Shown piece by piece: positions 47,369 to 50,300 of a DNA stretch of 57,506 nt (the stretch's first letter is position 1; each line of letters begins with the position of its first letter). Location: the NCBI GenBank assembly GCA_026989095.1, contig JALSKA010000166.1, positions 1 through 57,506 on the forward strand, in the 5' to 3' direction. This stretch comes from Ardenticatenaceae bacterium. Lineage in GTDB: Bacteria; Chloroflexota; Anaerolineae; Ardenticatenales; Ardenticatenaceae. The position numbers and the translations under genes were made by a program. The notes under the pieces were generated by a model. That model searched no databases. It saw only the letters and a program-made list of their open reading frames with translations, and had not been told where the DNA came from.

Positions 47369-50300
47369 TTACTCCTCGCCCTCGTCCTCCTCGAGTTCCT
47401 CCTCGAAGAGCTCGTCCAGCGAGGCCGGCTCCTCGCCGTCCAACTCCTCGTCCAGCTCGATGCCTTCGATGTCCACGTCTAGCTCGGCCTCGGGCAACAG
47501 GTCGTCGTCCAGGAGGTTGAGCTCCTCCCCGTCTTCCGACTCCAACAACTCTTCGGACGGCGTCTCCTCCTCCTCGGCCGGAGTCTCGACGGACTCGTCG
47601 GCGAGCTCTTCCTCCACCAACTCGGCCAGCTCGTCTTCCAAGTCTGCCAGGGCCTCGATGTCCTCCAGCTCCTCCTCGCTCAGATCGGGGATTTCCAAGT
47701 CCAAGGGCTCCTCTTCGGGCGGGCGCTCGTCCACGATCTTCTCGGCGATCTGGTGCTCGAAGTCGGCCGTGTAGTCGCGGGGCCGGAAGCCCGTGCCGGC
47801 CGGAATGAGCTTGCCGATGATCACGTTCTCCTTGAGCCCTTCGAGGGGGTCCACACGTCCCTCGATGGCTGCCTGGGCGAGCACGCTGATGGTGTGCTGG
47901 AAGGAGGCCGACGAGAGGAAGGACTCCGTGTTGAGGGCCGCCTTGGTGATGCCCAGGAGCACTTGCTCGGCCGTGGCCGGCCGCAAGTTGCGCTCGATCA
48001 GGCGGCGGTTGACCTCCTCGATCTCCAGGCGGTCCACCAGGTCGCCGGGCAGGTAGGTGGTGTCCCCGGGGTTGCGGACGCGCACACGGCGCAGCATCTG
48101 GCGGATGATGATCTCGATGTGTTTGTCGTGAATGCTCACGCCCTGGGATCGGTACACCTTTTGGATTTCCTGGAGCAGGTACATCTGGGTGGCTTCGCGC
48201 CCCTGGATTTTGAGCACCAAGTGGGGGTTCTTGGCTCCCTCGGTGAGTTGGTAGCCGGCCTCGACGACCTGCCCCTCGAACACGCGCAGGCGAGCGGTGA
48301 GCGGAATCTCGTACTCGCGCACCTCTTTCTCGTCGTAGCGGAGGACGAGGTGGCCGTTCTCGAAGAGGACAACGCCGTCGCGGGGGGCCTCAACAGTGGC
48401 GCCGTCCGCGCCGCGGGCCAGCACGTCGCCCCGCTTGACGAGGTCGCCTTCTTCCACCACCACGTGGTAGCCGGAGGGCACCTCGACGGTGTGGTGAATG
48501 GCGTGGGCGTTGACGATGCGCACCATGCGCATGTCGCCGCTGCGCTCAATTTCCACGCGGCCGCCGATCTCAGCCAAGATGGCCTCGCCCTTGGGCACGC
48601 GGGCCTCGAAGAGCTCCTCCACGCGGGGGAGGCCCTGGGTGATGTCGCCGCCGCCGGCCACGCCGCCCGTGTGGAAGGTTCGCAGGGTCAGCTGGGTGCC
48701 GGGCTCGCCGATGGACTGGGCGGCGATGACGCCCACGGCCTCGCCAAGGGGAATGAGCCCGCCTCGGGCCATGTCGCGGCCGTAACACTTCACGCAAACG
48801 CCACGGTGGAGGCGGCATTCGAGGGGCGAGCGCACGTAGACTTCCTTGACGCCGGCGCGCAGGATGCGGCGCACGAGGCGCTCGTCGAGAAAGTCGCCGG
48901 CGTCGGCCAGCACTTCGCCCGTCTCCGGGTCGGCGACGGGGCTGGCCAAGTACCGCCCCAGAATGCGCTCGCCCAACTGTTCCTGCATCTCGCGGCTTTG
49001 GGCCTCGGTGATCCAGATGCCCTCCCGCGTGCCGCAGTCCTCGGCGCGCACGATGACATCCTGGGCCACGTCCACCAGCCGGCGGGTGAGATAGCCGGCG
49101 TCGGCAGTGCGCAGGGCGGTGTCGGCCAAGCCCTTGCGGGCGCCGTGGGTGGAGATGAAGTACTCCATGGCGTTGAGCCCTTCGCGGAAGTTGGAGCGAA
49201 TGGGCAGGGCGATGATGCGGCCCGACGGGTCGGCCATGAGGCCGCGCATGCCGGCCAACTGGGCCACCGGCCCGAAGCCGCCCTTGGTGGCCCCCGAGTT
49301 CGCCATGATGGCGATGGGCCCTCTTGGGTCGAGAACCCGCTGTACGAGGTCGGTGATGTCGTCCTTGGCCTTGGTCCAGAGCTCGATGGTCTTGCGGTAC
49401 TGTTCCTCGTCGGTGATCAGGCCACGGCGGTACTGGCGTTCGACATCTTCGACTTCCTGTTCCACTTCACGCAGGATGCGGGCCTTTTGTTCGGGGATGG
49501 TCACGTCGTCAATGGCGATGGTCACGCCAGACCGGGTGGCGTAATGGAAGCCCAAGTCCTTGAGCTGGTCCACGAAGGCAGCGGTGGCCTCCAGTCCCAG
49601 CTCGGTGTAGCACTCGGCCACGAGGTCCCTCATGCCTCCCTTGTCGAAGAGTTCGTTCCTGAAGCCCAGCTCCTTGGGAAGCACCTGGTTGAGGATCAAG
49701 CGGCCGGGCGTCGTTTCGACCAGCTCGTTGCGCCTGGGGTAGCGCTCGGGGTCGATGTGGTGCTTGGCCAGCGCCTCCTCCAACTCCCTGAGGGCCACGC
49801 GGCCGAAGTTGGGCACGGCCAGGAGCGCCTGGGGCCCCTCTTTCAGGCGGTCCACGATTTCGCCCACATCCGTCAGCCCCGCGTCGGCCAGGGCCTTGAT
49901 CACGCGGGAGCTCAGCTCCAGCTCCTCGACGCTCATCCCGTCGAACCAGCGGGGAACGCGCACCTTGATGGCCGCGTGGAGGGCCACTTCGCCGACCTCG
50001 TGGGCGTAGATAGCCTCATCCGGGTCGCTGAAGATGCGCCCGCTGCCCTGAGCGTCCGGGTCTGGGTCCATGGTGAGGTAGTAGAGGCCCAGCACCATGT
50101 CCTTGGTGGGGCTCACCGTGGGCTCGCCGTCGGCGGGCTTGAGCAAATTGCGGCTGGAGAGCATGAGCTGGTAGGCCTCGTCCACGGCCTTTTCGCTCAA
50201 GGGCACGTGGACGGCCATCTGGTCGCCGTCGAAGTCGGCGTTGAAGGCCGCGCAGACCAAGGGGTGGAGCTGAATAGCGTCCCCTTCGATGAGCACGGGC

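Follow-up and report, generated by a model that had tools for sequence, protein, structure and literature searches.

An α-CTD-like domain inside RNA polymerase β'

The β' subunit of RNA polymerase encoded in the window, by which we mean the whole stretch of 57,506 nucleotides of Ardenticatenaceae DNA that was analysed, carries an α-CTD-like helix-hairpin-helix (HhH) module within its own chain, as an earlier note had proposed. The module lies at window positions 49745-49936 on the minus strand, which is residues 727-790 of RpoC, and profile and fold together confirm that it belongs to the RNA_pol_A_CTD (PF03118) superfamily. The gene, rpoC, was called as an open reading frame of 1581 aa at 47369..52114 on the minus strand, with a GTG start that is preceded in the upstream sequence by GGAGG. 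The protein contains Pfam Rpb1 domains 1-5 and reaches 1704 bits against TIGR02386. Alignment of Chloroflexota RpoC proteins with and without the insert places the insert at about residues 722-797 (49724..49951, minus strand), and PF03118, together with the AlphaFold2 model and its Foldseek matches to α-CTD structures, delimits the α-CTD-like HhH domain to residues 727-783 (49766..49936, minus strand).

PF03118 matched these residues in the whole RpoC with an E-value of 1.1e-8 and 35.1 bits, the cut-off being 23.8, and with 2.6e-10 when the insert segment was searched alone. When the whole genome was scanned the profile found exactly two domains, one in RpoA (71.6 bits) and the other in the RpoC insert (39.2 bits), and the two are 44% identical over 54 aa. 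The RpoA of the host, 341 aa long, thus keeps a complete CTD of its own, a point that the earlier note had wanted checked, and the RpoC insert is therefore no replacement for it. The profile also matched 17 of 20 diverse inserts from other genomes at E ≤ 0.01.

The structure was predicted with AlphaFold2 in context, from RpoC residues 655-883 and 12 relatives. The insert came out with a pLDDT of about 96-98 throughout and with the fold of an α-CTD, four helices with an HhH, at RpoC residues 736-744, 750-758, 761-765 and 772-784, and with flanking strands at 716-719 and 798-801. Modelled alone, with three alignment rows, it had a mean pLDDT of 82.9 and the helices were unchanged. This isolated model was used for the Foldseek search, because the RpoC fragment gave RpoC chains only, and its best 50 PDB matches all came from entries that hold the α subunit or its CTD, with a probability of 1.00, an rmsd down to 0.9 Å and a TM-score of up to 0.93 by target length. 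The E-values were modest, 5e-3 at best, which is expected for so small a domain. PF03118, AlphaFold2 and Foldseek could each have spoken against the assignment, by an unrelated fold or by the lack of a profile match; neither occurred.

The insertion site in pore 1

Compared with the RpoC of insert-free relatives, the insert is located between the conserved segments of IKVR and of ETTPGR. In the RpoC alignment the distance between these flanks is 88-105 residues with the insert, as compared to 17-33 in insert-free Chloroflexota and outgroups. The insert interrupts a hairpin of two strands in the β' "pore 1" domain, at the hairpin's tip, and the insertion point is the same in 46 aligned RpoCs. 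The upstream strand, RpoC 716-719 (IKVR; 49958..49969, minus strand), is strand 62-65 of the AlphaFold2 model and ends at position 58 of PF04983 (RNA_pol_Rpb1_3); the downstream strand, RpoC 798-801 (49712..49723, minus strand), is strand 144-147 of the model, and there PF04983 picks up again at position 65. The length of the hairpin tip varies in many bacteria, and in Aminicenantes it is longer than the range of insert-free Chloroflexota.

In PF04983 the insertion point corresponds to residues 568-570 of yeast Rpb1, with Rpb1 568 falling on position 58 and 569 on position 60 (the query was a fragment identical to PDB chains, residues 479-670). The Rpb1 strand 567-570 is presumably itself paired with Rpb8. 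In Pol II the main contact of Rpb8 with Rpb1 is Pore 1, and Rpb8 is functionally linked to Rpb6, the homologue of omega (PMC13257274). The earlier note had considered that the insert could touch nucleic acid near the downstream channel, for which we found no evidence; the insert sits on the hairpin tip of pore 1, the dock of Rpb8 in Pol II. Rpb8/Rpo8 on Pore 1 of Rpb1 is thus comparable to the insert as an extra module at the homologous site, but it is a separate subunit with an OB fold and not an inserted HhH domain.

Distribution and origin

The suspicion that the insertion could be a trait of a lineage and not a single case was borne out: it is present at the same site in 55 of 199 genomes of the class, from 13 families, counting those genomes in which a long RpoC frame is matched across the insert without a break. 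In the remaining families of these 199 genomes only the flanks match. A phylum-wide search of 301 genomes gave full-length insert matches in three, all from this same class, Anaerolineae, and the insert was not found in the 263 genomes of other classes among them. Among named genomes, which were scanned with one pattern, general for RpoC, only two insert-bearing records were obtained; one is from a Caldilineaceae bacterium and the other is a MAG of Anaerolinea sp. The insert was absent from a record of an Anaerolineaceae bacterium, and the class is thus Anaerolineae taken broadly.

In a tree of RpoC from which the insert had been removed, 40 insert-bearing rows fell into one clade (93/93) together with three insert-free rows of families f98 and f110, and the window's own family, f1, was placed with f101 in the unresolved base. 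In a tree of the domains themselves, which comprises 64 columns, has moderate supports and an assumed root, and leaves out the divergent inserts, the inserts form one group (94/82) with the window's family included. The simplest reading is one insertion in the history of the class and some later loss. An independent origin in the window's family, as the RpoC-body tree could imply with four changes and its poorly resolved base, was considered and rejected; a single origin is preferred because the insert tree nests this family among the other inserts. It is possible that transfer, or a long-branch error in the RpoC-body tree, lies behind the placement of the window's family.

Relation to NusA

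The identity between the insert and the RpoA CTD of the same genome prompted the idea of a recent duplication of the latter, and this was rejected since the domain tree groups the inserts elsewhere. RpoA CTDs are split from all the rest (98/83), and the inserts stand among domains from NusA, with families f95 and f96 supplying their nearest neighbours. Alignment of the inserts with hhalign gave E-values of 8.7e-26 against the NusA domains and 1.3e-21 against the RpoA CTDs. Judged by these sequence comparisons, the closest relatives of the insert are tail domains of NusA, in Anaerolineae that do not have the insert. There the C-terminus of NusA carries the same α-CTD-like domain, with PF03118 scores of 59.3 and 40.5 bits in two examples. 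A single C-terminal domain of this kind was observed in the NusA of families f2, f9, f94-f96, f100, f106, f109, f120 and f124, and the loci include L162, L163 and L190.

The NusA of the window's genome is without such a domain and its tail is only acidic and of low complexity. The NusA gene was found in 73 genomes (the reading frames of G422 and G538, among those counted, are incomplete), and the domain was present in 19 of the 33 that are insert-free and in none of the 40 that bear the insert. This mutual exclusion comes from few independent changes, 4 and 3, with one independent pair on supported branches, so that a test with independent contrasts has no statistical power and the 0/40 against 19/33 is to be read as a clade-level pattern. 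Neither the NusA domain nor the β' insert was present in 14 of the 33 insert-free genomes, and the function is therefore dispensable.

Of the contacts that the earlier note had imagined for the domain, those of NusA type fit best, as the insert appears nearer in sequence to the α-CTD-like domains of NusA than to that of RpoA. In E. coli, NusA touches the α-CTDs and the tip of omega (PMC8940904), and its AR2 domain binds, or likely contacts, the CTD of the second α subunit (PMC4642336). Because the nearest relatives of the insert are in NusA, and because of these contacts in E. coli, we tentatively favour the interpretation that the insert is a docking module of NusA-AR2/α-CTD type that was moved into β', for the control of elongation or pausing. 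On this reading the HhH domain of about 65 residues, of the α-CTD/NusA-AR type, entered the pore-1 hairpin at its tip in a single event within the class, most likely as a descendant of the C-terminal α-CTD-like domain in the NusA of many other Anaerolineae. Once there it would be anchored by both of its ends to that face of the core which Rpb8 occupies in Pol II, and would probably adjoin the omega/α-II side that is visited by NusA. It most likely docks a protein and not DNA. The task that the mobile domain of NusA carries out in trans would here be carried out in cis and at all times. Its job could be a contact with the α-CTD, with another elongation factor or with the emerging RNA, and such a contact may tune pausing, termination or the retention of factors. 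The more specific proposal, that a regulatory docking domain passed from the dissociable NusA to the β' core, at the site of Rpb8 in archaeal and eukaryotic polymerases, and its function so became constitutive, we regard as somewhat unlikely. Counting against a docking role, some contact with nucleic acid would also explain why 38 of 46 inserts retain the arginine equivalent to R265.

The role of the α-CTD-contacting domain of NusA is known mostly from work in E. coli, where NusA comes and goes. If the insert replaces the C-terminal domain of NusA, then these bacteria would offer a natural experiment on it, and the insert would moreover be a case in which the Rpb8 site was occupied independently in bacteria.

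Constraint on the insert and its DNA-contact residues

The dN/dS of the insert was calculated for 12 close pairs and was 0.07-0.22 in 11 of them, the outlier being 0.45 in family f115; usually it exceeded the value for the rest of RpoC by a factor of between one and a half and several. The insert is thus under purifying selection, yet in most pairs it evolves faster than the remainder of the protein. The latter would suit a structural or nearly neutral insert of the lineage at a tolerant tip, one that stabilises the pore-1 hairpin or is merely harmless, and so would the differing tip lengths in many bacteria and the two families, f98 and f110, that are without the insert inside the insert-bearing RpoC clade. 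We nevertheless consider this unlikely, as the insert has been retained in 13 families with a dN/dS well below 1, conservation extends to positions on its surface, among them the R265 equivalent, and the NusA domain is missing from all of the 40 insert-bearing genomes that were checked.

The E. coli α residues R265, N294 and G296 were said to align with R737, N769 and G771 of the insert, and they do. The codon of R737 lies at 49904..49906, that of N769 at 49808..49810 and that of G771, the glycine of the HhH hairpin, at 49802..49804, all on the minus strand. The window's insert keeps four of the eight residues of the 265 determinant, the fourth being the equivalent of E302; at the equivalents of N268, C269, K298 and S299 it has K, A, V and A. 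The first of these is K740 (49895..49897, minus strand), at a position where the DNA contact is lost across the insert family. Among the 46 inserts the E. coli residue is found at R265 in 38, N268 in 4, C269 in none, N294 in 3, G296 in 35, K298 in 11, S299 in 3 and E302 in 35, and the asparagine at N769 is confined to the window's genus. All 48 RpoA CTDs that were sampled from the phylum have R265, N268, N294, G296, K298, S299 and E302. Furthermore, the inserts are acidic, with a mean net charge of −3.5 vs −1.4, and the domain differs from a DNA-binding α-CTD in its location between the strands of a β' hairpin instead of at a C-terminus behind a flexible linker.

The word "DNA-binding" in the earlier note is hence not supported for the family as a whole, in which N268, C269, N294, K298 and S299 are mostly gone although R265 is not. 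DNA binding of the α-CTD type is unlikely for the insert family because most of the contact residues are lost and the inserts are acidic; the retained arginine may leave room for some contact. It is consequently rather improbable that the insert is a true α-CTD copy which binds the minor groove of DNA, at UP-elements or in upstream or downstream DNA, or which binds activators. Such a copy would account for the fold and the PF03118 match, for the R265 and E302 equivalents in most inserts, and for N294 and G296, which the window's genus retains. It does not account for the lost positions, four of which (N268, N294, K298 and S299) the RpoA CTDs hold throughout, for the acidity, for the clustering of the inserts with NusA domains and not with RpoA CTDs, or for family f115, which keeps the domain though the R265 and HhH glycine positions are lost too. 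An RNA-binding HhH module in the Rpb8 position on the RNA-exit groove, acting on nascent RNA and termination, would fit the site, the Rpb8 dock on Pore 1, as well as the retained R265 equivalent and the fact that HhH domains commonly bind nucleic acid, but it is improbable with an acidic domain whose other basic contact residues are gone, and Rpb8, being an OB fold, is no kin of HhH.

In family f115 the loss of both R265 and the glycine of the HhH was seen at loci L138-L144, and it was seen also in L146 (G513); length and site are kept in all of them. The RpoC of L146 is on a very long branch (1.28) and is possibly fast-evolving or a second RpoC.

Comparison with known systems

Few proteins are as conserved throughout life as β', and those lineage-specific inserts of which we found a description are mostly of a few types, HABAS and BEAN. 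A review of such inserts in β and β' names the HABAS and BEAN domains and does not mention an α-CTD or HhH insert (PMC11515920). The present insert resembles them as a lineage-specific domain insertion in a large RNA polymerase subunit, but it is predicted to be an all-helical HhH domain and its structural matches are to the α-CTD only. We found no description, in the open-access literature, of an α-CTD-like domain in the pore-1 hairpin of β'.

With the α-CTD of RpoA the insert shares the sequence family, above the cut-off of PF03118, and the four-helix HhH fold. It differs in being inside β' with both ends held, in the loss of most DNA contacts and in being closer to the relatives carried by NusA. 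The C-terminal domain of Anaerolineae NusA is its nearest neighbour in the domain tree and is, like the insert, acidic on average; the difference is that the insert is fixed in the core of the polymerase, in RpoC, and the NusA domain is at the C-terminus of a dissociable factor. The AR2 domain of E. coli NusA is a functional parallel, and the kinship in sequence was tested with the Anaerolineae NusA domains instead.

A β' with an α-CTD-like domain is already in the databases, but with the domain elsewhere in the subunit. PRK14906 bears the name "β'/α domain fusion protein" in CDD. The NCBIfam model NF011498/PRK14906 has an α-CTD-like stretch at model positions of about 1315-1370, which some of the inserts match with E-values down to 7.3e-8. 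That domain is near the C-terminus of β', however, and the window's is at residue 727 of 1581; at the site of the window's insert only 22 positions of NF011498 separate the flanks (630 to 653). The whole RpoC of the window scores 1558 bits against NF011498, and these come from that part of the model which is general to RpoC.

α-CTD-like domains were observed in other proteins as well. At L161 (G498:C14:3500-6904), an open reading frame of at least 1057 aa encodes a membrane protein similar to glycosyltransferase 2 and cellulose synthase, with an apparent response-regulator receiver end and three tandem α-CTD-like domains that score 49-56 bits each with the insert profile. In G168, G200, G160 and G104 (family f4/f2) there are frames of 165-176 aa, other than RpoA, with an α-CTD-like domain.

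Other features of rpoC and its neighbourhood

At about residues 139-330 (window about 51123-51700, minus strand) the RpoC has a long and highly charged stretch, probably a coiled-coil, which separates two parts of Rpb1 domain 1 and is a further lineage-specific insertion in β'; its matches to apolipoprotein and MnmE_helical are weak. The C-terminal tail of about 120 residues, at about 1462-1581 (window about 47372-47731, minus strand), is very acidic. In the window's lineage rpoC is apart from rpoB, which is on G000:C220, and its neighbours are a divergent HD-domain gene upstream and a DUF2207 gene and rpsB downstream. The two genes are separate also in G088, G474, G509 and G005, and adjacent in G438, G412 and G529.
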